51,999 nucleotides of DNA from Planctomycetota bacterium (GTDB lineage Bacteria > Planctomycetota > JACQVX01), in contig JACQVX010000140.1 of the NCBI GenBank assembly GCA_016209495.1, positions 1-51,999 on the forward strand, written 5' to 3'. How positions within the stretch are numbered: position 1 is the stretch's first letter; the number at the start of each line of letters is the position of its first letter. Below, piece by piece: positions 6,082 through 27,105 of this stretch. The notes below the pieces were generated by a model. That model worked only from the letters and a program-made list of their open reading frames with translations. It was not told the origin of the DNA and did no database searches. Position numbers and translations under genes: made by a program.

Positions 6082-8103
6082 TCACCGCCCTTCCAGGCCC
6101 TCGGCCAGGGAGAGGGCCCGATCCACGAGGCTCGCCGGGTGGGGGAATCGGGCGAGCTCCGGTCCCAGCATCGCGACGATCCGGGGCGCGTGGCGGACCA
6201 GGCGCGGGTCGAAGGGGAGGCCGCGCAGCCCGCATTCCACCATCTGGACCCGCTGCCGGGCGTACTCCACCGCGTCGATGACGTCCAGGGCGAGGTAGGC
6301 CCGTTCCATGGCCCGGTATTCCTGCAGCGCCCGGTCCGTCCAGCCCTTCTCCTCGTAGGCCATGGCCAGGCGCCGCCAGGCGTCGGCGGCGGCGATGGGG
6401 CCCTTGGTGGAGCTGCGGGTGTCGTCGAAGTCGAACTCGATCCGGTCGGCCTCGGCGCGGCCGAAGAGGCCCAGGAGGGTCTTGTGCCTGGCCTTCAGGA
6501 CCTCCTGGCGGACCTCCGCGTCGCTCACGTTGGCGAGCTGGGTGTCCATGAGTACGTCCTGCATGAACCGGGCGGCGGTCCAGTTCGTGAGGGGGAAGCG
6601 GTAGAGAAGGCGTATCCCTTGGAGTGCCTCCCGGGTCACCGCCGGGTTGATAGGGTGGTCCGCCAGGGTCTGGCGGTAGGTAGCCAGACGCATGGCATCG
6701 AACTGTTCCAGGCGCTGATCCTCCAGGCGCAGGTCCTCGGGGAAGTAGTCGTAGAAGGCGGTCGTGCGGTCCGTCCGCAAGGCCCGGACGTAGCGGCGAA
6801 ACTCGCGCGGGTAGCGATCCATGAGGAGGCTCACGAAGACCCAGGACTCGGCATACTGGTGGCCGCCGAATCCCAGGGCGTAGGTCTCCTTGCGGAGGAG
6901 ATCCCCGATGGTGTCATAGCCCCCCGCGCGCAGCAGGGTCTCCACGGTCCTCACGCAGTCGTCATCCTTGAATTCGTTCCGGCCGTAGCCCATGTCCATG
7001 AAGTGGCCCAGGGCGAAATAATGCGCCAGTCCCTCGTCGATCCAGCGGGGACCGTACTTCAGTACGCGGTTGAAGAAGACGTGGCCCATCTCGTGGATAT
7101 ACACGGCCATGACGGACCACCTCTCGGTGGAGTCCTGCAGGTAGGTGTGGAGCACGAAGTCGTGGTCGCGGAGCGTGTGAGTCACCCCGAGCCCCCCCGG
7201 GGGCCCCCCCATGCGGAGGTAGGAGACGTAGTCCCGGGCGACATAGATCCGCACGTGGTCGCGTTCGGCCTTGACGGTCTCGCGGCGGGGCAGGGTGGTA
7301 TCTCCCCGGGACTCCGGTATGCCGACCTGGATGACACCCGGGTCCTCGCGGTCCTTCACCCCGTAGATGTCCTCGTAGGCCTCGTAGACCTGGCCTGTCT
7401 TGAAAGCCAGCCAGGCGAGCCAGCGGTCCTCGGCATTCGGTACATTGGTCCAGATCTCGAAGTTCTTCTCCCGGACCTGCCCCTCGTAGTAGGTATTGTT
7501 GGCCAGCCAGCGCTCGTGCCCCGCCCGGTCGTGCCAGGTGCCCAGGTAGCGCACCTTCCCCTCGCGTTCCTTCACCTGCTCGGGGGTGAGCCACTCACCG
7601 TCCACCTCGATCAGGCCCAGGGACTGCAGGTAGTCGGCGCGGTACTGGGCCAGGCGCTCACGGGCGAGACCGGCCTCCCGGGAGGCGGGGTAGAGGGAAA
7701 GGAGCAGCTCCAGGACGCCGACGGCCTCCTCGTGACGCCTCGAGCTGCGGAGCCTGGCGGCGGAGGCGAGCATCCCCGCGGCGGGGGTATCGTCGGCCTT
7801 GGTGCCGGAGCCTGCCCCGGGGACGGGCTCCTCGGGACGCGTCTCGGGGGTCGTCCCGGGGTCCGTCGGTGCACGCTCGTCGAGTCGAACGGAGTCCACC
7901 TCGGACCTGGGGACCCGGATCGTGGCGTAGCGCTGCTGGAGGACGAGGACGTCACCCTCCTCGGAGACCTCGCCCTCCAGGGCCCGCCCGTCTCGCAACA
8001 CGACGGTGTCGCCCGCGGCCGGGCCGGCCCCCGCGGCTACCAGGACCGCAAGGCCGAGGGCCCGGGCCGCCGTTCCTCCTGCACCCATCCTGATGTGTCG
8101 CAT
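6082..8103 (-). CDS. Secreted gluzincin metallopeptidase-like protein with TPR-like repeats
   Basis: A 673-residue protein with a cleavable signal peptide (about residues 1-31, ending AAG-D). A small beta domain (about 32-75) precedes a helical region. The peptidase core has zinc motif HEMGH (337-341) and a downstream glutamate ligand at E357 in WIDEGLAHYFA, the gluzincin arrangement (DUF1570/MA-like). The C-terminal 150 residues look TPR-like. All expected zinc ligands are present, so it is probably active in the periplasm or outside; the substrate is unknown. It is transcribed away from the phosphatase gene, and the 293-base gap between them must hold both promoters, though no convincing hexamer pair is visible there. 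Confidence 0.75.
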   Translation of the reverse strand: MRHIRMGAGGTAARALGLAVLVAAGAGPAAGDTVVLRDGRALEGEVSEEGDVLVLQQRYATIRVPRSEVDSVRLDERAPTDPGTTPETRPEEPVPGAGSGTKADDTPAAGMLASAARLRSSRRHEEAVGVLELLLSLYPASREAGLARERLAQYRADYLQSLGLIEVDGEWLTPEQVKEREGKVRYLGTWHDRAGHERWLANNTYYEGQVREKNFEIWTNVPNAEDRWLAWLAFKTGQVYEAYEDIYGVKDREDPGVIQVGIPESRGDTTLPRRETVKAERDHVRIYVARDYVSYLRMGGPPGGLGVTHTLRDHDFVLHTYLQDSTERWSVMAVYIHEMGHVFFNRVLKYGPRWIDEGLAHYFALGHFMDMGYGRNEFKDDDCVRTVETLLRAGGYDTIGDLLRKETYALGFGGHQYAESWVFVSLLMDRYPREFRRYVRALRTDRTTAFYDYFPEDLRLEDQRLEQFDAMRLATYRQTLADHPINPAVTREALQGIRLLYRFPLTNWTAARFMQDVLMDTQLANVSDAEVRQEVLKARHKTLLGLFGRAEADRIEFDFDDTRSSTKGPIAAADAWRRLAMAYEEKGWTDRALQEYRAMERAYLALDVIDAVEYARQRVQMVECGLRGLPFDPRLVRHAPRIVAMLGPELARFPHPASLVDRALSLAEGLEGR

Positions 8104-8396
8104 GCCTGTCCCCCCTCACCCGGGCAAGGGCGACCGCCATGCCGAGACCCCGGGCGATCCATCCGAAGGGCGGCTGCGGTCAGGGCCTCCCGCGCCCGCC
8201 GCACCCTGTGGCGCTTCCCGACAAATGTGGGCATCCGCCACGGGACAGGGGCAAGGCCTGGGTCGGCGGCAGTCTTCGGGACGGGGCGCCATGCGCCCGC
8301 TTGGGGCCGCCCGCGGGAGTTCCCTGGCGCGGGCATGGGCCTTGAGCGAAGTGGGAGGGAGCGGGGATCTCCCGCGGGCCCGGGGGGCAAGTCCGC

Positions 8397-9269
8397 ATGG
8401 ACGTCCGGTTCTACGGCCAGAGCGATGTGGGGCGCCGCCGGGAGGTGAACGAGGACGCCTACACCATCTCCGAGGAGAACGGCCTGATGATCCTGGCGGA
8501 CGGGATGGGCGGCCACGAGTCGGGAGAGGTCGCGAGCCGCATGGCCGTGGAGGGGATGCTGGAGCTGGTGCAGACCTGCCGGCCCACCCATGTCCCCGTG
8601 GAGCACCCGGCGGAGCGGGAACGGTTCCGGGCCATGATCACCTGCCTATTCAACGAATGGGTGCTGCGTACGAACTCGCGGATCCACGCGGAGGGCGTGC
8701 GGCGCCAGCTTCCCCGGCGGATGGGCACGACCCTATGCTGCCTCTATTCCTACGAGGACATGGTGGTCCTCTGCCACGTGGGCGACAGCCGGATCTATCG
8801 CCTCCGCCGCGACGTGCTGGAGCAGGTCACCACGGATCACTCGGTGGCCAACGAGCGTCTCCGCGCCCAGGAGGTCACGCGTGCCGAGGCCCGGACCCTG
8901 GGGCACCACCACGTCATCACCCGGGCCCTGGGGACCCAGTCCGTGGTGAGGCCCGAGATCCAGGTCCAGGACCTCTGCCCGGGCGACGTCTACCTGCTGT
9001 GCAGCGACGGATTGCACGACCTGGTGCAGGACCGGGAGATCCGGGAGGTCCTGATGGCCTTCCGGGACCGCCTGGACCGAGCCGCCGGCGTCCTGGTGGA
9101 CATCGCGAACCGCCGCGGGGGGCACGACAACATCACCGTGGTGATCGGGGAAATGGCCGAACGCGGCGTCCTGGGCGGTGTGCGCCCCGGCGTGCACCTC
9201 GAGGACACGGAGGCGCTGGACGAGACCACCGAGTGCATGGAGGACCTGCGTGCCTTCGGCGCCGCCTGA
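8397..9269 (+). CDS. PP2C-family Ser/Thr protein phosphatase
   Basis: Metal-dependent removal of phosphate from Ser/Thr residues, the counterpart of Hanks-type kinases. The 290 residues keep the PP2C motifs: VNEDAY, ILADGMGGHESGE, the core MGTTL...VGDSR, ITRALGT, LLCSDGLHDLV and HDNITVV, so all metal-binding aspartates are present. No membrane segment. About 18 kb downstream are two kinase genes, with three FHA-containing proteins between, so the natural targets may be the Tad-associated phosphoproteins. About 20 residues after the last motif are unassigned. A Flp-like gene and a STAS gene follow at short distances, probably in one operon. Confidence 0.93.
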   Translation: MDVRFYGQSDVGRRREVNEDAYTISEENGLMILADGMGGHESGEVASRMAVEGMLELVQTCRPTHVPVEHPAERERFRAMITCLFNEWVLRTNSRIHAEGVRRQLPRRMGTTLCCLYSYEDMVVLCHVGDSRIYRLRRDVLEQVTTDHSVANERLRAQEVTRAEARTLGHHHVITRALGTQSVVRPEIQVQDLCPGDVYLLCSDGLHDLVQDREIREVLMAFRDRLDRAAGVLVDIANRRGGHDNITVVIGEMAERGVLGGVRPGVHLEDTEALDETTECMEDLRAFGAA

Positions 9270-9282
9270 GTCCTGCCTGGCG

Positions 9283-9465
9283 GTGCGGCGCCGCCGGGGA
9301 CTGAAGGCCTTGTTCCAGGAGGACCGGGGGCAGGCCCTGGCGGAGTATGCCGTCGTGGTGGCCCTCTGCTTCGCCGTGGGGGTCGCCGTCTACGGCCGTC
9401 TCCCGGCGGCCGTGATGGGGTATTACCGAGGCGTGATCCACGTGGTCGCGCTCCCGATCCCTTAG
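9283..9465 (+). CDS. Small Flp-type pilin-like protein
   Basis: A 60-residue protein starting with GTG 13 bases after the phosphatase stop. After a basic leader, DRGQALAEYAVVVAL has the Flp prepilin form: a glycine-glutamine cleavage site, glutamate at mature +5 followed by tyrosine, then a hydrophobic helix of about 20 residues. It is clearly related in layout to the Flp pilins at 10866 and 15564 but more divergent. An upstream reading-frame extension overlaps the phosphatase gene and gives an implausible arginine-rich sequence, so the short form is preferred. Probably a minor pilin; a prepilin peptidase is not encoded in the window. Confidence 0.72.
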   Translation: MRRRRGLKALFQEDRGQALAEYAVVVALCFAVGVAVYGRLPAAVMGYYRGVIHVVALPIP

Positions 9466-9476
9466 GAGACGAACGG

Positions 9477-9881
9477 ATGCGCTGTCCCGTGGAGCTGTGC
9501 CCCGATTCCATAGCCGTCCTGAGGCCCAAGGGAGACCTGAGCGGTTCCAGGGCCAGGGCCCTGGGAGAGCGACTCACGGAGCTGGTCCGTTCGGGGACGC
9601 GCCGCTTCGTGCTGGACTTTTCGGGTTGCGAATCGGCCGACGCCTTCGGCGTGGCCGTCCTGGTCGAGCTGGCATCCCGCAGGGCCACGAGTTTCAGCGG
9701 CCTGGGCAGGGCCCTGGCCGCCGATCTCGGGCGCGGTGGTCTCCCGCCGTCCGGCGATCGTTTCCACCGGGACGTGGCCAGGGCGCTCGCCTGGCTCCGG
9801 GCCGACGGCCGGCACGGGCGCACCTGGGTGGAGCTTGCGCCGACCCCGTCCTGGGACGTGCCCGGTCTCCGGGTCGCTTGA
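9477..9881 (+). CDS. STAS-domain protein lacking the usual phospho-acceptor serine
   Basis: A 134-residue protein with an AGGAG site 7 bases before its ATG. Residues about 1-100 look like an anti-sigma-factor antagonist (SpoIIAA-like) STAS domain: a VLRPKGDLSG strand and the segment LDFSGCESADAFGVAVLVEL. In classical members this reads DSSG, with the first serine phosphorylated by an anti-sigma kinase; here it is DAFG, so regulation by serine phosphorylation at that position looks impossible. No anti-sigma kinase gene is nearby. It sits with the phosphatase and mini-pilin genes, suggesting a scaffolding or partner-switch role in that set. Confidence 0.72.
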   Translation: MRCPVELCPDSIAVLRPKGDLSGSRARALGERLTELVRSGTRRFVLDFSGCESADAFGVAVLVELASRRATSFSGLGRALAADLGRGGLPPSGDRFHRDVARALAWLRADGRHGRTWVELAPTPSWDVPGLRVA

Positions 9882-9901
9882 GCCCGACGCACGCACCCTC
9901 C

Positions 9902-10540
9902 TCAGTAGACATAGGGACAGAGCCTCCAGCGGACCCGCCGGAGATACTCCGCGTACTCCGGGTTCCGCCCCAGCAGCGCCTCCTCGCTCCGCAGACGGAA
10001 AACCTGGCAGACCAGGGCGACCCCCATCACCGCGAGGTTGAAGTGGCTGTAGCTGGAGAGGAGGAAGCCCAGGTTGGCGACCTGGTAGCTGCCGTAGAGG
10101 GGGTGACGGACCAGGCGATACATGCCGCCCGTCTTGATGCCGCGGTCGGTGGGCAACAGGCCGAAGCTCGTGTTCAGGGACAGGGCGGACAGGAAGACCA
10201 TCACCGTGGCCGCGGTCATGAGGACGAGGGGAAGCGGGTGGTCCCAGCCTACCTCGGTGCGACTCGCCAGCAGGGGGCCGAACGTGCCGACCAGGGTCGT
10301 GGCGATGGTCCAGGGTGTCGCGGAGATGCCCGTGTAGGGCCGCCGGATGACGAACAGGACCATCACCACCAGATAGTCCAGGAGGAAGAGCGCCGTGCAG
10401 ACGAGGTCCAGATCGAGGCCGCGCCCTTCCTCCAGGCGACGGGCCATGGGAAGGACGCAGGCCCTCAAGGCCATGTAGCCCCAGAGGGCAGCCGGGACCA
10501 GGTTCTCCGCGGCGCGCCGAAGGGCCCGGAGCCATTCCAT
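9902..10540 (-). CDS. Isoprenylcysteine methyltransferase/PEMT-like membrane methyltransferase
   Basis: A 212-residue integral membrane protein with about five hydrophobic segments. The C-terminal half has the family signature: GGMYRLVRHPLYGSY (S-adenosylmethionine binding near RHP.Y) and a final amphipathic part with EEALLGRNPEYAEYLRRVRW. This is the phospholipid/isoprenylcysteine methyltransferase-like fold; substrate cannot be told from sequence. Transcribed opposite to the Tad genes, its start faces the 325-base regulatory region of the first Flp gene. Confidence 0.82.
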   Translation of the reverse strand: MEWLRALRRAAENLVPAALWGYMALRACVLPMARRLEEGRGLDLDLVCTALFLLDYLVVMVLFVIRRPYTGISATPWTIATTLVGTFGPLLASRTEVGWDHPLPLVLMTAATVMVFLSALSLNTSFGLLPTDRGIKTGGMYRLVRHPLYGSYQVANLGFLLSSYSHFNLAVMGVALVCQVFRLRSEEALLGRNPEYAEYLRRVRWRLCPYVY

Positions 10541-10654
10541 GGGGGTCTACCTCCGCGTTCCCTTATAACCGCTCGGGGTGCCCGGCGCGCCCGTCCCCTG
10601 CGACAGCGTCGTTTCCCCCCGTGTCCGACCCGGCCGCTGCCCCGTCGGGCCTCG

Positions 10655-10690
10655 TGTGGGGCCGGCCCACAGCTGTGGGACGGCCCCACA
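10655..10690 (+). promoter_or_regulatory. Paired enhancer-like dyads upstream of the first Flp gene
   Basis: Two 17-base palindromes of form TGTGGG-N5-CCCACA lie side by side at 10655-10671 and 10674-10690, centres 19 bases apart. They are 107-126 bases upstream of a sigma-54-type promoter, a normal distance for binding sites of a sigma-54 activator acting by DNA looping. The same paired arrangement with the same 19-base spacing occurs at 14072-14107, and a single copy at 15399-15415. The rest of 10541-10865 shows no gene. Confidence 0.75.
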
Positions 10691-10780
10691 GGAGGCGAAG
10701 CAAGGGGACAGGCCGTGCGGGCTGCTCGGATCTCCGTGCCGCCTTTGGAAGGGAAGGAGTTGAAGCGAACCTGGAGACGA

Positions 10781-10795
10781 TGGCACCAGGTATGC
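10781..10795 (+). promoter_or_regulatory. Sigma-54-type promoter of the first Flp pilin gene
   Basis: TGGCAC, 5 bases, ATGC at 10781-10795: the -24 element is perfect and the -12 element differs from TTGC by one base, with the GG/GC spacing required by RpoN. The Flp start codon is 71 bases downstream. The paired dyads about 100 bases upstream support the call. Confidence 0.72.
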
Positions 10796-10865
10796 GCCCT
10801 CTTCCTGGCGAACCGGGCCAGTGAACTAGAGAACTTCCAAGGAACTGAACGAGGAGGATAGGACC

Positions 10866-11060
10866 ATGAAGCGCACGAACCTGCTGAAGACGGACCGGAA
10901 GAGTGGCCAGGGCCTGACGGAGTACCTGATCATCGTCGTCCTGGTGGCCATCGCCCTGATCACCGCGGTGGGGGCCTTCGGCGGCAAGGTCGAGGAGATC
11001 TTCACGAACTCCGAGTCCGCGCTGGACACCGGCGTCGCGCAGAAGATCCCGGGCGCCTAG
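10866..11060 (+). CDS. flp: Flp-type pilin (major pilin candidate 1)
   Basis: A 64-residue type IVb prepilin of the Flp family. A basic leader ends at glycine, the mature protein begins QGLTEYLIIVVLVAIALI with Glu5-Tyr6 and a long hydrophobic helix, and a short polar tail follows. Gene start is supported by GAGGAGGA 7 bases upstream. A strong hairpin directly follows (11099-11131), which would let this pilin be made in excess over the downstream genes. Bases 10914-10960 are almost identical to the matching part of the second Flp gene (15596-15642), pointing to a recent duplication or selection on the helix. Confidence 0.95.
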   Translation: MKRTNLLKTDRKSGQGLTEYLIIVVLVAIALITAVGAFGGKVEEIFTNSESALDTGVAQKIPGA

Positions 11061-11098
11061 CCTACAGCCTCGTCGAGACAGGTACGGCGCTTGGATGC

Positions 11099-11131
11099 AA
11101 GGTCCCCGGAGACGTTCTCCCCGGGGACCTT
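11099..11131 (+). terminator. Strong hairpin between flp and the TadE-like gene
   Basis: Perfect 11-base arms (11099-11109 and 11121-11131, AAGGTCCCCGG and its complement) with an 11-base loop, 38 bases after the flp stop. There is only a weak T-rich tail (GTCATTCC), so it may be a partial terminator or an RNA-stabilising hairpin that protects the flp message while some transcription continues into the TadE/TadG genes. Confidence 0.7.
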
Positions 11132-11154
11132 GTCATTCCGGGGACGAGAAGGGC

Positions 11155-11673
11155 ATGAGGAAGTCGGCGAGGGGAGAGGCCGGATACGCCATGGCGGAGT
11201 TCGCCATCGTGTTCCCGGTCCAGATCTTCATCACCCTGGCGGTGATGCAGCTCTGCCTCATCTATGCGGGTCACGAGGTGGTCCAGTACGCCGCCTTCGC
11301 CGCGGCCAGGGCCCGGATGGTGGGCGAGGATCCGCTCCGTGCCGCCAAGGTGGTCACGAGCGCGGTGGCGGGCACCACGGGCCCGCAGGGGGTCGCGGTG
11401 GATGTACCCGGCTGGGGGCCGCTGCCGCGGTCCCCGGCCGCCGACACCAAGACCCGCGTCGTCGACGAGTCCTCGGGTCCGACGGTGCAGCTCACGGTCG
11501 AGCACGACTTCGAGCTCTCCATCCCGGTGATCAACACCTTCTTCGCCCTGGGGGCGAAGTTCCTCTACCTGGGCGACGGGCAGGGCCGCCCGCTACGCGG
11601 TCCGATCTACGACGGGGTGCCGCACCTGACCATCCGGGAGCGCTGCGCCCTCTACAGGCCCTGGGAGGATTGA
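11155..11673 (+). CDS. tadE: TadE-like pseudopilin
   Basis: A 172-residue minor pilin-like protein of the Tad machine. After a short basic leader, GEAGYAMAEFAIVFPVQIF gives a TadE-type prepilin cleavage site (glycine, then glutamate at +5 and phenylalanine) followed by one membrane helix and a soluble domain with an HDFELSIPVINTFFALG segment typical of the family. The ATG at 11155 is chosen because an upstream in-frame ATG at 11095 would place the start inside the hairpin. Its stop overlaps the next start (TGATG), so the two are translationally coupled. Confidence 0.85.
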   Translation: MRKSARGEAGYAMAEFAIVFPVQIFITLAVMQLCLIYAGHEVVQYAAFAAARARMVGEDPLRAAKVVTSAVAGTTGPQGVAVDVPGWGPLPRSPAADTKTRVVDESSGPTVQLTVEHDFELSIPVINTFFALGAKFLYLGDGQGRPLRGPIYDGVPHLTIRERCALYRPWED

Positions 11674-13322
11674 TGGCGCCCGCGCGGCGGATCGCACGCG
11701 TCCTGGGCCGGGCCTGGGCCGATGAGCGGGGTCAAAGCCTGGTCTTCGGGGCCATCACGGCATTCACCCTGGTCCTCTTCGTCTCCCTCGCCTTCCACGT
11801 GGGCCGCGTGACGGCCTCGCGGGTGCGGGTCCAGAACGCCGCCGACGCCTCCGCCTACGCGGGGGCGCTGGTCGAGGCCAATGGTCTCTCGGCCATCGCC
11901 TGGCTGAACGACGGCATGGCATACACCTACTACCGGCTCATGCGCTACGCGGTGGACTACGTGGTCTTCGACACCCTGAACGGCTTCCTCGAGTGCTCGC
12001 CCCCGGCGGACGACCTCATCGCGGGGGGCGCCGAGGTCTGGGCCGTGCGCGCGCGCTACCAGCTCGCGAGGCAGCGCTACGAGGACTGGGTGGTCTCGCC
12101 GGGCGGCGGGGACGGTCGCGGGAAACGGTGGATCAAGCGCATGGGCCGCCTGGCCCGGGGCATCGCCACCCTGACCCCCGCGGTCATCCGCGAGGAGGTC
12201 TGGCGCGTGGCCCAGGCCAACGGGGCCGAGCGGGTGGCCATGCTCCCCGAGGCCGAGTCGGACTGGGACAACGGCTATTTCGTCTTCCGGGACGGGGCGC
12301 GTCCCATCCCGGTCTTCCGCGCGGACGACGTATACAACTTTGCCGTCACCAACGCCACCCGGCGCATCGGCCAGGACGAGCTGCCATACTGGGGGGGGGG
12401 CGGATCCGAGTCCTCGTGGTTCGACCCCGAGACCGGCAACCTCTGGTATCGGGGCGCCTATCACCAGACCCGGGTCTGCTGGCACCCCCAGGACCTGGGG
12501 CACGTCTCCATGGGGCCTCCGCTCCACGTCACCGACGACTACCGCAGGTTCTACGCGCCCTTCGGCCCCAATCACCACTGGCACCACGAGCACTTCCACC
12601 TGACCTCCGACTTCCCCTTCTTCCTCGTCCACGAGAACGGGCACTATCCGCCGGAGATGGAGGACCCCAAGCAGGGGCCCCACGAGGAGGTGATTGACAT
12701 CCCGGACTGGTATCTCCCCCACCACGCCATAGAGGAGTGCCCCCTCTGCGCGGAGGATGAGTGGGAGGAGGACGGCCGGTCGGACGTCAGGGTGTGGCCC
12801 CAGGCCGGCACCCCGAGGCAGAACCGCTATCAGGAGCGCGATCTGGAGGACATCTTGGACGGCCCCATGCGCGACCTCTACATGCCCCTGGTCGTGAACC
12901 CGGAGGCCCTCGGGGTAGGAATCAACGTGGGCGTCTACAGCCCCCCCCTCGCCGGCGGGACGTTCGAGGCGGGCTTCGGAGACCCGGACTGGGGCTACGT
13001 GGCCCTGGCCAGCGCCCACGTGGGGATCGACGACGGCGGACGCGTCCAGGAAGACCTGGCCGGCTGGGCCTCGGACACCGAGGAGAACCTCTATACGCGG
13101 GTCCGCTGGGGGGCGAAGCTGGTGTCCACGCGCTCTCCGCATACCTACTTGGGCCGGCCGGCGTCGGAGCTATGGCAAGGCCTCGCCCAGGCCCGCTGGA
13201 GGGAGGACCCCATGGGCCCGCCGGACCCCTCGGTGCGGGTGGCCCTGGCCCGGATGGCCGACCCGGCGAGCGGCAGCCCCTTCCAGTTCGGCTCGGGACT
13301 GGACGCGGTGGTGAGCCACTGA
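11673..13322 (+). CDS. TadG-like pilus assembly protein
   Basis: A 549-residue protein with the Tad-related N-terminus: DERGQSLVFGAITAFTLVLFVSLAFHVGRVTASRVRVQNAADASAYAGAL in parts, a single membrane helix followed by the AADA.AYAGAL segment shared by TadG/DUF2134 proteins. The remaining 450 residues form a large extracytoplasmic domain rich in Trp, His and Tyr (for example NHHWHHEHFHL near residue 305) with no recognised family. The His-rich part could bind metal. Start and stop both overlap neighbouring genes by a few bases, so it is part of a tight operon. Confidence 0.78.
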   Translation: MAPARRIARVLGRAWADERGQSLVFGAITAFTLVLFVSLAFHVGRVTASRVRVQNAADASAYAGALVEANGLSAIAWLNDGMAYTYYRLMRYAVDYVVFDTLNGFLECSPPADDLIAGGAEVWAVRARYQLARQRYEDWVVSPGGGDGRGKRWIKRMGRLARGIATLTPAVIREEVWRVAQANGAERVAMLPEAESDWDNGYFVFRDGARPIPVFRADDVYNFAVTNATRRIGQDELPYWGGGGSESSWFDPETGNLWYRGAYHQTRVCWHPQDLGHVSMGPPLHVTDDYRRFYAPFGPNHHWHHEHFHLTSDFPFFLVHENGHYPPEMEDPKQGPHEEVIDIPDWYLPHHAIEECPLCAEDEWEEDGRSDVRVWPQAGTPRQNRYQERDLEDILDGPMRDLYMPLVVNPEALGVGINVGVYSPPLAGGTFEAGFGDPDWGYVALASAHVGIDDGGRVQEDLAGWASDTEENLYTRVRWGAKLVSTRSPHTYLGRPASELWQGLAQARWREDPMGPPDPSVRVALARMADPASGSPFQFGSGLDAVVSH

Positions 13323-14023
13323 TGGGCGGCCTGCGACGTGCGCTCCGCGACGAGGGCGGGAACGCCATGGCGGAGATGGTGGTCCTCCTGCCGGTCTACC
13401 TCCTGCTCATCGTGGGGGCCATCTACCGGGGCGACCTGGGGCTTGTCGCCCAGCGCGCGGAGATTGCCGCGCGCTATACGGCCTGGCAAACGGCAGGAGG
13501 CGTGAACGCCACGCCCTTCTTCGGGAACTTCCGCGGGCTGGCGCGGGAGGGGTCCGGCGGGCCCGCCACGCAGGTCTATACCATCGGGGCGACCATCCTC
13601 CACCTCGGTCGGGCGCAGGCCTACCGGGGCGACCCGGGGCGCGACGGTTCCGAGGAATACTACGTGACCGCCATCCTGGACGGCCGGCTTGGGCCCGGCG
13701 CCTGGCTCGAGGGTCGCGAGTCCCAGGTGGACTTCCAGTATACGTCCTACACCGCCGGGTCCAGGAACGTCATGGAGCTGCCGGACGCCACGGTCTCCAG
13801 GGCGCACACCACCCTGCTAAAGACGCCAGCCCATCGAACGCTCGGGGACCCCTCCCGCCACGACGTGGAGGGCGTCCTCTTCCGTGATTTCCTCGTCTAC
13901 GACCTCTCCCGGGGGCTGGAACGGGGCATGTTCCCCGAGTACCTGCTCCCGGAGCCGGAAGATCGGAACGGGGCCTGGGAGCGCGATTTCGCCGCGACCC
14001 GGCAGCTCCGGTTCGGCTTCTGA
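13322..14023 (+). CDS. Second TadE/TadF-like pseudopilin
   Basis: A 233-residue protein whose ATG overlaps the TadG stop (TGATG). The leader ends EGGNAMAEMVVLLPVYLLLIVGA, again glycine-X4-glutamate before a hydrophobic helix, as in TadE/TadF minor pilins. The soluble part has no other recognisable motif. Last gene of this transcription unit; a new sigma-54-type unit begins in the 215-base gap that follows. Confidence 0.75.
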   Translation: MGGLRRALRDEGGNAMAEMVVLLPVYLLLIVGAIYRGDLGLVAQRAEIAARYTAWQTAGGVNATPFFGNFRGLAREGSGGPATQVYTIGATILHLGRAQAYRGDPGRDGSEEYYVTAILDGRLGPGAWLEGRESQVDFQYTSYTAGSRNVMELPDATVSRAHTTLLKTPAHRTLGDPSRHDVEGVLFRDFLVYDLSRGLERGMFPEYLLPEPEDRNGAWERDFAATRQLRFGF

Positions 14024-14071
14024 CCTTCCCTTCCCGCGTCCCACGTCCTTGTCCGACCGCGGCGAACTTCC

Positions 14072-14107
14072 TGTGGAGGCGCTCCACAGGCGTGGACTCG
14101 GCCCACA
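14072..14107 (+). promoter_or_regulatory. Paired enhancer-like dyads upstream of the secreted protein gene
   Basis: TGTGGA-N5-TCCACA at 14072-14088 (perfect palindromic arms) and CGTGGA-N5-CCCACA at 14091-14107, centres 19 bases apart as at 10655-10690. They lie 103-122 bases upstream of the sigma-54-type element at 14194. Confidence 0.7.
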
Positions 14108-14193
14108 GGAAGACGTGGAACGAGGGTCGGGCCCGGCGGCCTGCAAGTCCACATTCCAGCTTCTCTTGAGGTGAACCCTCACCATCGTGAAGC

Positions 14194-14208
14194 CGGCACC
14201 GGCATTGT
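14194..14208 (+). promoter_or_regulatory. Sigma-54-type promoter of the secreted protein gene
   Basis: CGGCAC, 5 bases, TTGT at 14194-14208; one mismatch in each of the -24 (TGGCAC) and -12 (TTGC) elements, spacing exact, start codon 31 bases downstream. Confidence 0.62.
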
Positions 14209-14238
14209 TCCTTCGCAGGGCAAGGAGAGGTGAGCACG

Positions 14239-15237
14239 ATGAACAGGTTCATGCAGTCCAGGCACACCATCGCGGCCATCAGTCTGTCCTTCGTCGTCGT
14301 GACGGTTGGACCCCTCTACGCCCAGGAGGCCCCGCCCCCGGCTACCACGCCTGACCCGGCACTGTCCGGTGCCCCGGCGGCGCCCGCGGCCCCGGCGCCG
14401 CGCAGTGCGCGCTACCGGGAGGAGTACCTGGTCATCGAACGCGCGAACGCGGAATACAACCAGGCGGTGAAGGACCTGCAGCAGGCCGTCGACGCGAAGG
14501 ACTACGAGGCATACAACGAAGCCCTGGGCCGGGCCGAGGCGGCCGTCACGAAGATGGAGAAGGCGAACATCGCCCTCGACCAGATCACTAAGCAGGAGCT
14601 CACCTCGCAGCTCGACACCATCGACCGGCGCATGGAGGAACGGCGCCAGCACCTGGGCGTCCTGGGCCAGATGGACAAGGTAGGACGTCGCGCCGAGGAG
14701 GTGGCCACGACGACGGGTCGCCGCACCGAGGGCCGGCCGGCGACCACCCAGGGCCGGCGCGCCGAGGGTACGCCCCAGGTGGGCCGGACCCCCGAGCTGG
14801 AGCGCCGGATGGAGGGGACACGCCGGCAGGTGGAGGCGACGCGCCAGCAGGAGGCCTCCCGCGGCGGCGAGAAGGAGAGCGGTGGCTTCATGTCCACCCT
14901 CGGCAAGATATGGGATGTCGCCAAGACGGTCTGGAAGACCGTCGACGCGGTGGCAGACGTGGGCGTGGGCATCGCATCCATGAAGCAGGGCCTCGACCGG
15001 CTCCGGAACTTCGGGAAGAACAAGCAGGGCTTCTTCGCCAAGTTCACGGACATCGCCTACGGGACGAAGCAGCTAAGCTGGGGTGGCCAGTCCATCCAGC
15101 GGGGCGTGCGCCACCTGGGCGAGGTGAAGGACAAGGTCTTCCCTCCCACCGGGGGCACGACCAGCACCGGGACCAACGGCGGCCGCCGGACCGAGGAGGA
15201 GATCCTCCTGGACCAGGGTCTGCAGCAAGGGCTCTGA
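14239..15237 (+). CDS. Secreted protein of unknown function, co-regulated with Flp pilins
   Basis: A 332-residue exported protein not recognised as any family. The ATG at 14239 is preferred over a GTG at 14230 because AAGGAGAGG ends right at the GTG but is well spaced from the ATG. A signal peptide ends near VGPLYAQ-E (about residue 30). Then come a Pro/Ala-rich linker, a helical region (about 65-150), an Arg/Gly/Thr-rich low-complexity part with repeated GRR motifs (about 153-200), and a hydrophobic-amphipathic C-terminal third. The sigma-54-type promoter and paired dyads shared with the Flp genes suggest a structural or secreted component of the Tad system. Confidence 0.7.
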   Translation: MNRFMQSRHTIAAISLSFVVVTVGPLYAQEAPPPATTPDPALSGAPAAPAAPAPRSARYREEYLVIERANAEYNQAVKDLQQAVDAKDYEAYNEALGRAEAAVTKMEKANIALDQITKQELTSQLDTIDRRMEERRQHLGVLGQMDKVGRRAEEVATTTGRRTEGRPATTQGRRAEGTPQVGRTPELERRMEGTRRQVEATRQQEASRGGEKESGGFMSTLGKIWDVAKTVWKTVDAVADVGVGIASMKQGLDRLRNFGKNKQGFFAKFTDIAYGTKQLSWGGQSIQRGVRHLGEVKDKVFPPTGGTTSTGTNGGRRTEEEILLDQGLQQGL

Positions 15238-15294
15238 TGGCTCGGGGGGGCTCCTCGGCGGCGTCCCCCCGATGTCCCCCACAGAGAGTCGCGA

Positions 15295-15323
15295 CGAGGC
15301 CCGCCCATCGGGGGCGGGCCTCG
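15295..15323 (+). terminator. Terminator hairpin after the secreted protein gene
   Basis: Perfect 12-base GC-rich arms (15295-15306 and 15312-15323) with a 5-base loop, followed by GCGTTTCC. Located 58 bases after the stop codon and before the regulatory sites of the next gene. Confidence 0.8.
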
Positions 15324-15398
15324 GCGTTTCCATGCGAGCCGACGTGCGGCGCATGGGAGTCACTTCCAGTGTCGAGGGGTGCGGGAGGATTCGGCGGC

Positions 15399-15415
15399 TG
15401 TGGGACGGCTCCACA
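15399..15415 (+). promoter_or_regulatory. Enhancer-like dyad upstream of the second Flp gene
   Basis: TGTGGG-N5-TCCACA, 99 bases upstream of the sigma-54-type promoter. Exactly 19 bases before it is a lone half-site TGCGGG (15380-15385), in the register of the second dyad seen at the other two promoters, so the pair may have decayed here. The other sequence in 15324-15498 shows nothing further. Confidence 0.65.
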
Positions 15416-15497
15416 CGGGCCTCGGGCCAGGGAAGGGCGGAGCGGATGCAAGTGAAGGCGAAGGAACTGCATGCGCGCGGTGGCTACGGGACGGGGG

Positions 15498-15512
15498 CGG
15501 CACCGGGGTTGC
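15498..15512 (+). promoter_or_regulatory. Sigma-54-type promoter of the second Flp pilin gene
   Basis: CGGCAC, 5 bases, TTGC at 15498-15512: perfect -12 element and one mismatch in the -24 element, exact spacing, 52 bases before the start codon. Confidence 0.72.
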
Positions 15513-15563
15513 CCATTCCTTCCTGTGCAACGAGATCCTAGAGGTCGGGACGAGGACACACCC

Positions 15564-15806
15564 ATGTTGGGATACGGACGCCGCAGGGGACAGGGGTTGA
15601 CGGAGTACCTGATCATCGTCGTCCTGGTGGCCATCGCGCTCATCGTCGCCGTGGGACGCTTTGGTGGCGAGCTGGACGCGATCTTCCAGGGGACGCAGGG
15701 TCCCATGACCGCGGTGGGAAACAAGGCGAAGCCGGTGAACACCAATCCCGCGCCAGCGCCGGGGCCCGCGCCAGCGCCGACGGTCCCGCCGGTGCCGAAC
15801 GGGTAG
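15564..15806 (+). CDS. flp: Flp-type pilin (candidate 2) with Pro/Ala-rich tail
   Basis: An 80-residue Flp prepilin. Leader of nine residues up to glycine, then QGLTEYLIIVVLVAIALI, identical in the core to the first Flp. It differs by a C-terminal extension of alternating Pro and Ala (about residues 58-80), which may lie on the pilus surface or block packing. The ATG at 15564 fits the prepilin leader length; upstream in-frame starts would give an improbable leader. Followed by a terminator hairpin at 15826-15850, so it is a single-gene unit. Confidence 0.93.
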   Translation: MLGYGRRRGQGLTEYLIIVVLVAIALIVAVGRFGGELDAIFQGTQGPMTAVGNKAKPVNTNPAPAPGPAPAPTVPPVPNG

Positions 15807-15825
15807 CGGCAGCGGCCAGGTCACG

Positions 15826-15850
15826 CGGGGCGCCCCAAAGGGGCGCCCCG
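15826..15850 (+). terminator. Terminator hairpin after the second Flp gene
   Basis: Perfect 11-base arms of CGGGGCGCCCC type with an AAA loop, 20 bases after the stop codon. No T-run follows, as is common in very GC-rich genomes. Confidence 0.75.
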
Positions 15851-15878
15851 TGTCGCTGGATGGACGAGGCATGAAGTC

Positions 15879-16457
15879 ATGACCACCCGACTCCTGAAGG
15901 GTATCGCGATCGCCAGCCTGGCGGTGCTCCTGTCCATGGCCGCGGTGGCCCAGGGCACCGTGGGGTGCGACGTCTTGTTGCTGGCATTGGCCGCCGGCGG
16001 CTCACGGGCCTTCGAGAGCGAACTTTCCCCTCCCCCGGATGCCCGGTGGAAGACCGTCCGCATGGACGGCGAGACGATCCCCCTCCGGGAGGGAGTCTCG
16101 CCTCTCGCCCCCGCGGCACTGGTGTCCCTCATGACGCGTCAGCTCGCGGGCCGGGGCTATGTCCCCCTCCGGTGGGTACCGCGAGGCGACCCGCGGGTCG
16201 CCCCGCACCTCCTTCGCAGGGGGGCCTACGTGGAGCTGCTGGGGGCCTCGATGGCCTCCCTCGGCTACATGGACCCGCGCGGGCGGACCGCCGCCGCCGT
16301 GGCGTGGCCCGGGCCGGGTGGGGTCGGTTCGCGCTACGTCATCGGGGGACTCGTCGAATGGGACGCCGCTGTCTGCGACGGACAGGGCCTGGACACTACC
16401 CTGGACTCCCTGGAGTCCGGTGGCCCCCACCTGAAGGAGCTGCTGCTCGGTCGCTGA
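15879..16457 (+). CDS. Exported protein of unknown function in the Tad locus
   Basis: A 192-residue protein with an N-terminal signal sequence (basic start, hydrophobic stretch to about residue 24, AVAQG). The mature part shows no motif I recognise; two hydrophobic patches (LLLALAAGG and the GAYVELLGASMASLGYMD region) and a cysteine near each end (C29 and C165) that could form a disulfide. Lying between the second Flp gene and cpaB on the same strand, it is likely a Tad-associated periplasmic protein, by position only. Confidence 0.55.
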   Translation: MTTRLLKGIAIASLAVLLSMAAVAQGTVGCDVLLLALAAGGSRAFESELSPPPDARWKTVRMDGETIPLREGVSPLAPAALVSLMTRQLAGRGYVPLRWVPRGDPRVAPHLLRRGAYVELLGASMASLGYMDPRGRTAAAVAWPGPGGVGSRYVIGGLVEWDAAVCDGQGLDTTLDSLESGGPHLKELLLGR

Positions 16458-16539: not shown

Positions 16540-17334
16540 ATGCGCAACAAGATCGCCCTCGTCATGGCCATCATCATGGGCGTGGTCGCCGTGGTCGCCA
16601 TGAAGCTCTATCTAGAGCAACAGCGGGACAAGATCCGGGCGGAGCAGGTCCAGTATCCGGTGCTGGAGGCCGCGGAGGACCTCAAGAGCGGCGACCTTCT
16701 GGGCCCGACTTCCGTGCGAGTCACCAAGTACCCCAAGACGTGGATCGACGCCCTCGGAGGGGCGGTCATCGAGGAGGCCTACAAGGACAACTACGTGGGC
16801 AAGCGGAAACTGGTGGCGGACGTGAAGGAGGGGAAGGTCCTCCTCGTCCACCACTTCGCCCTTGGGGCCGAAGGGCCGCGAGGGGGATTCACCCTGGGGG
16901 CCGGACAGCGCGCCGTCACCGTGCAGGTCAGCGAGACCAGCGGCCTGGCAGGTGCCCTCAAGGTGGGCGACTTCGTGGACGTCCTGGCGACGTTCAAGGT
17001 CCAGCGACTGAACTACGAGTTCACCGTCACCCTCGCGGAGAAGAAGCTCGTCCTGTCCCTGGGTCAGGCGGGTGCGGCGTCGCCGACGGGGCTCTTCGGC
17101 GGCGGAGGTCCGGCGTCCGCGTACGGCACCGTGACGCTCAAGGCCAGTCCCGAGGAGGCCCAGAAGCTGATCCATGCCCAGACCTTCGGGTCCCTCTCGC
17201 TGGTGCTGCGGGAGGCGGCGGACTCCCAGCTCGACCCGAAGCGTCCCTCCTTCGACTCCAACGACGCCATACGCCAGGCCATCGAGAACAAGGAGATCTT
17301 CAACCCCCTGGAGCACCTCCAGCCCGGTAGGTAG
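16540..17334 (+). CDS. cpaB: CpaB/RcpC-type Flp pilus assembly protein
   Basis: A 264-residue membrane-anchored periplasmic protein of the Tad outer-membrane side, thought to work with the secretin. One N-terminal membrane helix (about residues 5-22), a SAF domain (about 38-110, with the AAEDLKSGDLLGPTSVRV strand pattern) and the RcpC/CpaB domain with AGQRAVTVQVSETSGLAGALKVGDFVDVL (about 125-153). Well spaced GGAGG precedes the ATG. First gene of the assembly operon; the next gene starts 5 bases after its stop. Confidence 0.9.
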   Translation: MRNKIALVMAIIMGVVAVVAMKLYLEQQRDKIRAEQVQYPVLEAAEDLKSGDLLGPTSVRVTKYPKTWIDALGGAVIEEAYKDNYVGKRKLVADVKEGKVLLVHHFALGAEGPRGGFTLGAGQRAVTVQVSETSGLAGALKVGDFVDVLATFKVQRLNYEFTVTLAEKKLVLSLGQAGAASPTGLFGGGGPASAYGTVTLKASPEEAQKLIHAQTFGSLSLVLREAADSQLDPKRPSFDSNDAIRQAIENKEIFNPLEHLQPGR

Positions 17335-17339
17335 ACCCA

Positions 17340-19064
17340 TTGCTCGGTGGGGCGGCCCCGGCGGCTGCGCCGAACGGGACTGCCGCTGGCAATCCCTCCC
17401 GTCGGGCGCTCGTGGCGCCCGATGGAGGCGCGGCTCCCCCGATGCTTGTCAAGGATCTGGCCGTGTCCGCACTGCTCATCCGGGACAGCAGAGACGGGAA
17501 GACCAAGAGGATCCTCCTCAACAAGACCAAGCTCACCATTGGCAAGAAGGAGGGCAACGACCTTGTCCTCCCGCGCAAGAGCGTCTCGCGGGAGCACTGC
17601 GTGATCTTCTTCTATAACAACAAGTTCATCATCCGGGACCTCGGGAGCGCCAACGGGACCTTCGTCGGCGGCTCGCGCATTGAACGCGACACACCGCTTT
17701 CGGACGGGGCGACGGTGCGCATAGGCGAGTTCGACCTGGTCTTCCAGGCGGACGGCAAGGGCGACGAATCGGCCCTGGGACTCGCGGGGGAGAGGCCCGA
17801 GCAGGTCCCGCCGGAGATCAAGCGGAAGGTCCACGAACGGCTGATCCAGAACAAGACCATCAAGCAGATGGACCTGGACGCCGTGAGCGAGCAGGAGGCC
17901 AGGCTCACCACCACCCAGGTGGTGACCCAGGTGGTGAAGGAGCTGGCGGCGGAGATCCCGAGATGGGTCTCCCTGGAGAGGCTCTGCAAGGAGGTCGTGG
18001 ACGAGGCCCTGGGGCTGGGGCCGCTGGAGGAGCTCCTGGCGGACGAGTCGGTCACGGAGATCATGGTCAACAACTGGGACCGGGTCTATGTCGAGCGCAA
18101 CGGGAAGCTGGAGATTACCGGCGCCCGTTTCACGGACAACGACAACCTCTTGAATGTGATCCGGAGGATCATCTCCCCGGTGGGGCGGCGGGTGAACGAG
18201 CAGACGCCCATGGTGGACGCGCGGCTCAAGGACGGCTCCCGGGTGAACGCCATCATCCCCCCCCTCGCGGTGAGCGGCCCCTGCCTGACCATCCGCAAGT
18301 TCCCCAAGGAGCGGCTGAAGACCGAGGACCTGGTGGCCTTCGGGACCTTGACGCGGCGCATGGCGGACTTCCTGTCCCTGGTGGTGAGGCACCGCCAGAA
18401 CGTCCTCATCAGCGGCGGGACCGGGTCGGGCAAGACCACCCTGCTCAACGTCGTCACCGCCTTCATCCCCGTCGAGGAGCGGATCGTCACCGTGGAGGAC
18501 GTGAGTGAGCTTCAGCTCCCCCAGGATCACGTGGTCTCCCTGGAGGCCAAACCGCCGAACCTGGAGGGCCAGGGGGCCATCCCCATCCGCCAGCTGGTCA
18601 TCAACGCCCTACGCATGCGCCCGGACCGCATAGTGGTGGGGGAGTGCCGTGCCGGCGAGGCCATCGACATGTTGCAGGCCATGAACACGGGCCACGACGG
18701 TTCTCTCACCACGGTCCACTCCAACTCCCCCAGGGACTGCCTGGCCCGCCTAGAGACCCTGGTCCTCATGAGCGGCGTGGAGCTGCCATCGCGCGCCATC
18801 CGCGAGCAGATCTCCAGCGCCGTGAACTTCATCGTCCAGCAGGCGAGGCTTCCGGACGGGAGCCGCAAGGTGACGCACATCAGCGAGGTGGTGGGGATGG
18901 AGGGGGACGTCATCACCCTCCAGAACATCTACCAGTTCGTGCAGACGGGGGTGGATGCGGAGGGCCGCATCAAGGGGGGGCACAAGGCCACCGGGGTGGT
19001 GCCCAAGTTCGTGGAGGAATTGAAGCGCCGGGGGATACCGGTGGACATGGCGCTGTTCAGCTAG
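17340..19064 (+). CDS. tadA: TadA/CpaF-type secretion ATPase with N-terminal FHA domain
   Basis: Motor ATPase that powers Flp pilus assembly, here 574 residues with an added phosphothreonine-binding FHA domain. FHA (about residues 40-138) keeps IGKKEGNDLVL, SVSREHC and GSANGTFV, so the phosphopeptide site looks intact. The CpaF part follows (about 155-560): Walker A GGTGSGKTT at 359-367, Asp box VTVEDVSELQLP and Walker B/His box region MRPDRIVVGECRAGEAIDM, MNTGHDGSLTT. The annotated start is TTG at 17340; an ATG at 17442 just before the FHA domain is a fair alternative, since the intervening 34 residues are Ala/Gly/Pro-rich. The FHA fusion ties the motor to the Ser/Thr kinases encoded downstream. 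Confidence 0.95.
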   Translation: MLGGAAPAAAPNGTAAGNPSRRALVAPDGGAAPPMLVKDLAVSALLIRDSRDGKTKRILLNKTKLTIGKKEGNDLVLPRKSVSREHCVIFFYNNKFIIRDLGSANGTFVGGSRIERDTPLSDGATVRIGEFDLVFQADGKGDESALGLAGERPEQVPPEIKRKVHERLIQNKTIKQMDLDAVSEQEARLTTTQVVTQVVKELAAEIPRWVSLERLCKEVVDEALGLGPLEELLADESVTEIMVNNWDRVYVERNGKLEITGARFTDNDNLLNVIRRIISPVGRRVNEQTPMVDARLKDGSRVNAIIPPLAVSGPCLTIRKFPKERLKTEDLVAFGTLTRRMADFLSLVVRHRQNVLISGGTGSGKTTLLNVVTAFIPVEERIVTVEDVSELQLPQDHVVSLEAKPPNLEGQGAIPIRQLVINALRMRPDRIVVGECRAGEAIDMLQAMNTGHDGSLTTVHSNSPRDCLARLETLVLMSGVELPSRAIREQISSAVNFIVQQARLPDGSRKVTHISEVVGMEGDVITLQNIYQFVQTGVDAEGRIKGGHKATGVVPKFVEELKRRGIPVDMALFS

Positions 19065-19076
19065 GCCGCGTGCACA

Positions 19077-19937
19077 ATGGAAGACCTCGCGGCCCAGGGC
19101 TTCGTCCTCTCCTTCATCTTCGCGGCGGTGACCATCTTCGTCACGGTGGGCTTCAGCCTCTTCAGCGAGGGCTGGACCACCTACGAGGAGAAGTACGTGT
19201 CCGGGGCGGAGAGGACCCTGGAGTCCATGTTCCTCTCCATCCCGCCGCAGCAGCTCATCTATCTCTCGGCCTTCACCGGGACCCTGGGTTTCTTCGGGGT
19301 GCTCCTCGCGACGCAGGAGATGGTGTGGTCGGTCCTCACCGGCCTGGCCGGCGTCTTCGTCCCGGAGGTCACCATCCGGCTCCTGCGTTGGAAGCGCGCG
19401 CGGCGCTTCCAGGAGCAGCTCGTGGACCTGCTCCAGAGCCTCACCAATTCCCTGCGGGCCGGCATCGCCTTGCCCATGGCATTCGAGTCCGCGCGCCACG
19501 AGATGCCCAACCCCATGGCGCAGGAGATCGGTCTGTTGACGCAGGAGTTGAAGCTGGGGGCCTCCCTGGACGCGGCCCTGAGGCACATGTTGGAGCGCAT
19601 GCCCGGCGAGGACCTGGACCTCGTGATCACGGCCATCGAGATCTCCGGGGAGGTGGGGGGCAACCTCACCGAGGTCTTCGGCAAGATCAGCCACACCATC
19701 CGCGATCGCAGCCGGATCGAGCGACGCATCAGCGCGCTGACGGCCATGGGTCGGCTCCAGGGCCTGGTGATGGGCCTCCTGCCGCTGGCCTTCCTGCTGG
19801 GCATCTACCTGATGCAACCCGAGTACATCCTGCCCCTGTTCACGACGTGGACAGGCAACGCCATCCTGGGCGTCATCGCTGTCCTGGAGGTCATGGGGTT
19901 CTGGTTCATCCGGAAGATCGTGAATATCGAGGTCTGA
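19077..19937 (+). CDS. tadB: TadB-type inner-membrane platform protein
   Basis: Inner-membrane partner of the TadA motor (T2SS-F family). The 286 residues have four hydrophobic segments (near residues 10-28, 58-75, 78-97 and two at the C-terminus about 220-285) around a cytoplasmic helical domain with LVDLLQSLTNSLRAGIALPMAFE and the EISGEVGGNLTEVF segment, both family hallmarks. Starts 12 bases after the ATPase and precedes tadC by 11 bases. Confidence 0.93.
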   Translation: MEDLAAQGFVLSFIFAAVTIFVTVGFSLFSEGWTTYEEKYVSGAERTLESMFLSIPPQQLIYLSAFTGTLGFFGVLLATQEMVWSVLTGLAGVFVPEVTIRLLRWKRARRFQEQLVDLLQSLTNSLRAGIALPMAFESARHEMPNPMAQEIGLLTQELKLGASLDAALRHMLERMPGEDLDLVITAIEISGEVGGNLTEVFGKISHTIRDRSRIERRISALTAMGRLQGLVMGLLPLAFLLGIYLMQPEYILPLFTTWTGNAILGVIAVLEVMGFWFIRKIVNIEV

Positions 19938-19948
19938 GCCCACAACCC

Positions 19949-20878
19949 ATGAACCCTCTGGTCATCTACGTCTTCACCGGATCCTGCGTGAGCCTCTTCG
20001 TATGGTCGACGGTTTCCATCTACCACGAGACGGTATCGGTGGACTTCCGCAAGGAGCGGGAGGAGCGGTTCGTCGGCAACTTCCTCTGGAGCCTCATCCA
20101 CCCATTCGTGCAGCTCGTGGCCTACGCCATCGGCAAGGTCCCCACCCGCGCCAGTACCCGCGCGCCGCTCGCGGGCTGGGGAGACACCGTCGTGGCCCTG
20201 TTCGATGCCCTGCGGGCGCGCTGCCGCGACCTCATCCTGAATGCGGGGAAGGGCGGGGCCATGACCCCCGACGAGCTCATGGCCACGGTGGTGGTGGGCG
20301 GCGCACTGGGGAGCGCCATCGGCTCGCTCATGTATGTCCAGGTCCCCCACTGGGCCGTCTACGGCCTTTTCGCCGGGACAGGCCTCATCCTCCCCTTGGT
20401 CTATCTGGGGGAGGCGGCGCGGCAGCGCCAGTTCCAGATCCGTAAGGCCCTGCCCTATTCCATGGACCTGCTCACCCTCTCGGTGGAGGCGGGGCTGGAC
20501 TTCACCGCGGCGGTGGAGCGCATCGTGGAGAAGCAGCACAAGAACGCCCTGGCCCAGGAGTGGTCCCTCCTCCTCCGGGAGGTGCGCATGGGGAAGACCC
20601 GCAGCCAGGCCCTGAAGGACATGGCCCGGCGGGCGAACCTCGACGAGGTGCGTTCCCTCTGCTCGGCCATCGTGCAGGCGGACGAGCTGGGGGCCAGCCT
20701 GGCGCCGACCCTCCGGATCCAGTCGGAGCAGCTCCGTGAGAAGCGGTCCGTCCGCGGGGAGACCCTGGCGCAGAAGGCCCCGGTGAAGGTCATGCTCGCC
20801 CTCATCGCCTTCATCTTCCCCACGGTCGTGCTGATCATCTTCAGTCCGATGGTGATCAAGACCTTCCGGCTCCCCTGA
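19949..20878 (+). CDS. tadC: TadC-type inner-membrane platform protein
   Basis: Second platform protein of the Tad motor. The 309 residues contain a T2SS-F domain with LPYSMDLLTLSVEAGLDFTAAVERIV and SAIVQADELGASLAPTLRIQ, and membrane helices at the N-terminus (about 4-22), middle (about 110-150) and C-terminus (about 280-300). Last gene of the operon. Genes for the secretin (CpaC/RcpA), prepilin peptidase (TadV/CpaA) and TadZ/CpaE are not in the window and must lie elsewhere. Confidence 0.93.
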   Translation: MNPLVIYVFTGSCVSLFVWSTVSIYHETVSVDFRKEREERFVGNFLWSLIHPFVQLVAYAIGKVPTRASTRAPLAGWGDTVVALFDALRARCRDLILNAGKGGAMTPDELMATVVVGGALGSAIGSLMYVQVPHWAVYGLFAGTGLILPLVYLGEAARQRQFQIRKALPYSMDLLTLSVEAGLDFTAAVERIVEKQHKNALAQEWSLLLREVRMGKTRSQALKDMARRANLDEVRSLCSAIVQADELGASLAPTLRIQSEQLREKRSVRGETLAQKAPVKVMLALIAFIFPTVVLIIFSPMVIKTFRLP

Positions 20879-20899
20879 GGCCCCCCGGGGCAAGGAGTC

Positions 20900-23278: not shown

Positions 23279-23310
23279 GGAGGCGCCGTCCGGACGGGGC
23301 CCTGGTCGCC

Positions 23311-23335: not shown

Positions 23336-23363
23336 GACTCCTTCCCGGGGCGGACGGGGTGCG

Positions 23364-25526: not shown

Positions 25527-25566
25527 GGGCGCGTAGGCGGACGTTGTAGGTGCAGGTGGCCGGGAT

Positions 25567-27101: not shown

Positions 27102-27105
27102 CGCC

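Follow-up and report, generated by a model that had tools for sequence, protein, structure and literature searches.

Sigma-54 and its enhancer-binding proteins (EBPs) are known as regulators of type IVa pilin, flagellar and nitrogen genes. At NtrC-type enhancers such as that of glnAp2, the binding site is a 17-bp palindrome whose 6-base arms flank 5 bases and which occurs in tandem some 100-140 bp upstream of the sigma-54 promoter, and the type IVa pilin gene pilA is controlled by PilS-PilR together with sigma-54. Tad/Flp pili govern attachment and biofilm formation, and the regulators known for them include PprAB in Pseudomonas and CtrA in Caulobacter. Here we analyse a Tad locus on a 51,999-nucleotide contig of a Planctomycetota bacterium (JACQVX010000140.1 of assembly GCA_016209495.1; this whole contig is referred to below as the window), where palindromic dyads recur upstream of sigma-54-type -24/-12 elements. 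We argue that dyads and elements together point to a well-supported enhancer-type regulon, which would take in at least one kinase gene besides the Tad genes and use an operator specific to this genome.

The arrangement resembles NtrC-type enhancers in its 17-bp palindrome, its tandem upstream sites, its -24/-12 promoters and the Fis-type helix-turn-helix (HTH) of the candidate activator. It differs from them in the half-site (TGTGG rather than TGCACC), in the 19-bp spacing of dyad centres, in its targets and in a candidate activator that carries GGDEF and GAF domains in place of a receiver domain. With PilS-PilR and pilA it shares a pilin gene that is, here by prediction, under sigma-54 and an EBP; unlike that system, it involves Tad/Flp pilins, several dispersed promoters, a kinase gene and a candidate activator without a receiver domain. 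Dedicated control of flp/tad genes is also found in Pectobacterium, Liberibacter, Pseudomonas and Caulobacter, although none of these cases is described as an enhancer acting with sigma-54. In Pectobacterium, the regulator is an OmpR-type response regulator, and the sigma-54 activator VasH, tested by quantitative PCR, was not confirmed to control flp/tad (PMC3767616). For Liberibacter, VisNR is given as a Tad/Flp regulator in the title of a paper cited in PMC10934763. The rpoN-mutant table of P. fluorescens PF07 has no flp/tad change (PMC9207406), and a survey of sigma-54 regulons, which covers Planctomycetia among others and reports enrichment of PilA, names neither Flp nor Tad in the main text (PMC12316311). 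A search of the open-access literature, which leaves most subscription papers outside its reach, returned no account of a Tad system controlled by sigma-54.

Palindromic dyads upstream of Tad genes

The window is one of the 291 contigs (C103) of a 4.08-Mb genome that is 86% complete, and has a G+C content of 71%. Upstream of flp1, the first of two genes for Flp-type pilins, lie two 17-bp dyads, at 10655-10671 and 10674-10690 (TGTGGGGCCGGCCCACA-GC-TGTGGGACGGCCCCACA across 10655-10690). A second pair, at 14072-14088 and 14091-14107 (TGTGGAGGCGCTCCACA-GG-CGTGGACTCGGCCCACA across 14072-14107), precedes a gene for a secreted protein, and a single dyad at 15399-15415 (TGTGGGACGGCTCCACA) precedes flp2; none of these sites is assigned to a strand. 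The original prediction had placed dyads upstream of all three promoters, with an identical 19-base spacing at two of them, and this is what we find: the sites lie at these coordinates and the centres are exactly 19 bp apart in both pairs. As for the consensus that had been proposed, TGTGGG-N5-CCCACA, the palindrome stands and its exact letters do not, as the dyads at 14072 and 14091 deviate from them and TGTGG-N7-CCACA describes the core better. A TGCGGG half-site at 15380-15396 had also been claimed for flp2. It does fall in the 19-bp register, as a putative degenerate partner of the single dyad, but its score is at the level of chance (-0.3 bits, against 17-23 bits for the five strong dyads in the window).

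To put these sites in context, exact and near-exact patterns were searched in the entire 4.08-Mb genome, with the reversed pattern and the expectation from base composition as controls for chance. TGTGG-N7-CCACA occurs eight times, compared with one occurrence of the reversed pattern and about 3.3 expected by composition. Six of the eight exact dyads fall in just four intergenic promoters, four of them in the window (10655, 10674, 14072 and 15399) and two on another contig, C197, where they form a perfect double dyad, again with 19-bp spacing, at L007:3302 and 3321 (L007:3302-3337, equivalent to G000:C197:22301-22336). This off-window pair is flanked by a gene for a PknB-like Ser/Thr kinase (+ strand, predicted start around L007:3471, with a short leader). 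Pairs with 19-bp spacing and at most one mismatch are found at three places genome-wide, namely before flp1, the secreted-protein gene and the kinase gene, where 2.7e-6 plus 1.9e-4 (about 2e-4) would be expected; the reversed pattern yields no such pair in this genome. Across 391 other genomes, from the same phylum and a different class, a 19-bp pair is present at one place (G179).

A position matrix, built from the seven strong dyads themselves and run over 1.09 Mb (27%) of the organism's own sequence, returned all seven among its top eight hits. The eighth (L216:4365) lies in a long reading frame, as do the two remaining exact dyads (C76 and C250), and all three were rejected as further promoters; a dyad on C238 was set aside as a poor match. 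The genome-wide counts thus do not show dyads to be frequent away from sigma-54 elements.

Similar sequence at several intergenic places might also be left behind by a mobile repeat family without regulatory role. Here, however, the copies have only the TGTGG and CCACA arms in common, with 7-base centres and flanks that vary, and they are confined to these promoters, so that we regard this origin as extremely unlikely. Alternatively, the dyads are perfect, G+C-rich inverted repeats, one of which, at 14072, begins about 50 bases past a stop codon, and they might form RNA hairpins that serve as terminators or leader structures. Yet there is no terminator call at the dyad sites of the window and no match to an Rfam family in 8000-16000, and the flp1 and kinase dyads cannot be terminators of an upstream gene because they lie between divergent genes. 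The arms, moreover, keep their sequence and their 19-bp register, beyond what the ability to pair would require. We consider RNA hairpins very unlikely.

Sigma-54-type elements here and in relatives

The -24/-12 elements that had been claimed at 10781, 14194 and 15498 are all present on the + strand: TGGCACCAGGTATGC at 10781-10795 for flp1, CGGCACCGGCATTGT at 14194-14208 for the secreted-protein gene (with GT instead of GC at -12) and CGGCACCGGGGTTGC at 15498-15512 for flp2. Transcription would start at about 10807, 14220 and 15524, respectively. Judged with an approximate matrix, each is the best element of its region, with P around 0.01 on one strand, and comparison with random 300-bp windows of the contig gives 0.02-0.03 for each element and a Fisher p of 0.001 for the three. 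The distances of 99-126 bases from dyad to element likewise hold up, at 126 and 107 bases from start to start for flp1, 122 and 103 for the secreted-protein gene and 99 for flp2. Counted from the last dyad base to the start of the element, the interval is nearly constant (91 bases for flp1, 87 for the secreted protein, 83 for flp2 and 93 for the kinase), and the dyad centres precede the inferred transcription starts by about 115-145 bp. The genome has one match to rpoN.

Is sigma-54 control peculiar to this organism? We compared nine genomes of the phylum, chosen for having both a pilin and an orthologue of the candidate activator introduced below. The contigs around their flp-type pilin genes were read and, as far as these reach, the Tad genes follow the order flp1-tadE-tadG-(TadF-like)-flp2-cpaB-FHA-tadA-tadB-tadC, and their FHA-TadA proteins are 53-59% identical to the one in the window. 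Thirteen flp promoters of these relatives are enriched in sigma-54-type elements (Fisher p 4e-7; TGGCTCCCGAGTTGC and TGGCCCTGGCTTTGC in G126 are examples), and strong elements of this type also occur at further pilin loci in the phylum and at one Desulfobacteraceae locus. The TGTGG dyad, in contrast, is absent from all of these loci. Sigma-54-type elements before flp thus recur in the phylum, and this part of the arrangement is no special trait of the organism. As relatives have such flp elements without the dyad, the control of Tad by sigma-54 appears to predate the TGTGG operator.

The flp promoters of two relatives, G157 and G186, contain GAGACG[AT]ATC, which has only three occurrences in 205 kb from seven genomes of the same family. 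A looser version, GA[CG]ACG-N-A[CT]C, is found before flp1 and flp2 of these two (L334, L335) and before flp2 of G126 (L332). As the motif was chosen by eye in these very promoters, we offer it as a suggestion only that a different operator might be used there.

We think it very probable that the dyads serve one Fis-type sigma-54 activator as enhancer sites, or upstream activating sequences. Several observations weigh against this. The sigma-54 matrix takes its weights from general knowledge of the consensus rather than from training on the phylum. The element of the kinase gene, CGGTCCCGGGATTGC, keeps GG-N10-GC and is weak (best-in-region P 0.31), and the flp2 promoter has one good dyad only. 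Internal tad genes of the relatives, used as a control, give p 0.047, itself a marginal value, and the 13 promoters are not independent because the genomes were selected and seven of the nine belong to one family. Finally, as no other genome compared yielded the dyad set, the operator appears to be without a phylogenetic footprint.

One might also read the dyads as operators of a regulator other than an EBP, either a repressor or a sigma-70-type activator, near sigma-54-like elements that are coincidental. The single elements do score only moderately (9.5-9.6 with the approximate matrix), several chance sites in the window score higher, and the kinase element is weak. What such a reading has to contend with is the near-constant 83-93 bases to GG-N10-GC elements in four promoters, the location of the dyads far upstream, the lack of any sigma-70-type promoter match in 8100-15600 and the sigma-54-type elements at the flp genes of relatives. 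We hold it to be improbable.

If the dyads are enhancers, as we favour, the activator would recognise TGTGG-N7-CCACA as a 17-bp palindrome, in most cases with two dimers on a pair of dyads spaced by 19 bp, and would then remodel RNA polymerase-sigma-54 waiting at the -24/-12 promoter. The flp1-tadEG unit, the secreted protein, the flp2-cpaB-tadABC unit and the off-window Ser/Thr kinase would in this way be activated together, and the kinase may act on FHA-domain proteins of the Tad locus. The involvement of sigma-54 and an activator, the use of one protein at all sites and the extent of the transcription units are all things we infer from sequence.

Which protein might bind the dyads

The best single candidate for the activator is encoded at 2217-5015 (+ strand), in a gene for a GGDEF-GAF-AAA+-Fis HTH protein with a sigma-54 interaction domain (PF00158, 8e-71; HTH_8, 7.8e-14). 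No other EBP was found in the window, where the gene lies about 6 kb from flp1. Its loop reads GAFSGA in place of GAFTGA, a conservative change, and its diguanylate-cyclase domain is seemingly intact as far as sequence can tell, with GGEEF and, upstream, an RDLD motif that resembles an I-site. That this protein binds the dyads is plausible by position and fold, and we rate the proposal as tentative, a little less than evenly balanced.

There is nearly as good a chance as not that enhancer and sigma-54 are both read correctly and the activator is another of the roughly 30 in the genome, in which case the protein at 2217-5015 would regulate something tied to biotin carboxylase. PF00158 has 36 matches in the genome, many in proteins with a Fis HTH, including a paralogue (C102) of the same architecture as the candidate. 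No dyad lies directly before the 2217 gene. Among named genomes, the candidate has its best long matches in Planctomycetota metagenome-assembled genomes; these matches, and Flp pilins elsewhere in the phylum that look planctomycete-like, agree with an assignment to Planctomycetota. Orthologues in four genomes (G018, G157, G142 and G186; 44-46% identity) sit beside a biotin carboxylase gene (65-68%), at loci without Flp or TadE/G/B/C genes; linkage to Tad, seen in the present genome, was not seen at the relatives' loci examined. The orthologues keep the front part of the protein. In eight of them (and in L302) the C-terminus is different, with a domain that reads as winged-helix-like in place of the Fis HTH.

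Apart from its position in the window, the candidate has in its favour that its orthologues recur in several genomes with such a Tad locus, mostly of one family, and that this genome departs from that family in the C-terminus and in the operator alike, which a joint change of the two would predict. One further protein, in G081 (L304), has a recognition helix nearly identical to that of the candidate; no dyad is present in the 3.4 kb examined near it. GAF-AAA-Fis homologues in named Planctomycetota contigs were rejected because their recognition helix differs and their surroundings contain no Flp genes.

The Tad locus and its possible regulon

The window holds a Tad/Flp gene set in one locus, with Flp pilins and TadA-, TadB/C-, TadE/G- and RcpC-like genes in an order common to the relatives. 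All are on the + strand. The locus begins with flp1 (10866-11060), whose 64-residue Flp/Fap-type product matches Flp_Fap at 2.7e-06 and has similar pilins in relatives; the Flp_Fap scores are under the Pfam gathering cut-off. In the flp1 unit follow a tadE-like pseudopilin gene (11155-11673; PF07811), a tadG-like gene (11673-13322; PF13400) and a gene for a small TadE/F-like membrane protein (13322-14023), which has no Pfam match and is conserved in relatives. The secreted protein, of unassigned family, is encoded at 14239-15237, with ATG at 14239 inside a reading frame that starts with GTG at 14230; tblastn returned no match to it in the Tad loci of relatives. Next comes flp2 (15564-15806; 80 residues, like pilins of relatives), and by the order of the locus a protein without assigned function (15879) stands between flp2 and cpaB/rcpC (16540-17334; PF16976). 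The tadA/cpaF ATPase gene with its N-terminal FHA domain (17340-19064) comes next, then tadB and tadC (19077-20878), the set being recognised from Pfam and from comparison with relatives. In 17340-29175, genes for two FHA proteins and for Ser/Thr kinases come after FHA-tadA, beside the Tad genes. A possible second Tad locus at C285:5023-6672 (L203) was rejected: the genome's other full TadA-like ATPase, encoded there, is an FHA-T2SSE ATPase that is 39% identical to TadA and has no Flp or TadE/G neighbours.

The regulon had been predicted to consist of the two Flp pilins and the secreted protein. Dyads and elements do form a coherent, non-random set, and it is the extent that needs revision, since the kinase gene appears to belong to the set too and perhaps a gene for a PP2C-type protein phosphatase (8397-9269, +). 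Upstream of the latter, between divergent genes, lies a degenerate dyad pair with 19-bp spacing and two mismatches (8207-8242, no strand assigned), followed by a weak sigma-54-like element without the -12 C (GGGCATGGGCCTTGAG, 8331-8346, +). Membership of the PP2C gene is possible and unproven.

Both of these outlying dyad pairs have a divergent neighbour. On C197 this is a gene starting at L007:3184 (-) for a 588-residue, probably secreted protein, with a sigma-54-like CGGCATGGACCTTGAC 69 bases from the dyads (score 7.0). Beside the PP2C gene it is 6082-8103 (-), whose product, again probably secreted, matches TPR weakly; in 8104-8206 there is a sigma-54-like CGGCATGGCGGTCGCC 62 bases from the 8207 pair (score 6.4). 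We mention these two elements as suggestions only.

Elsewhere in the window, 38791-50446 holds CRISPR-associated genes, namely those for a Cas3-like helicase (40331), a Cas_GSU0053 family protein (44983) and a Cas4-Cas1 fusion (48701), alongside an N6/N4 methylase-like gene at 38791. A Thy1-type thymidylate synthase gene followed by one for a MutY-like protein with HhH-GPD and NUDIX domains occupies 35747-38433.

A phospho-signalling link of the regulon is attractive because TadA carries an FHA domain and, like a link to cyclic di-GMP (c-di-GMP), is something we only infer. It is a speculative and, in our judgement, rather unlikely extension that a large planctomycete-like clade has a Tad sigma-54 regulon in which one diguanylate-cyclase/activator protein couples pilin transcription to c-di-GMP and to Ser/Thr phospho-signalling (kinase, PP2C and FHA-TadA), and in which lineages have swapped operator and DNA-binding domain jointly. 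Sigma-54 control that was kept while the operator changed, as the relatives suggest, would make a useful case of regulatory rewiring. For the organism itself, our results suggest that surface attachment is turned on by a single sigma-54 activator, and with an operator that can be counted genome-wide, the control of attachment in this uncultured lineage becomes testable.

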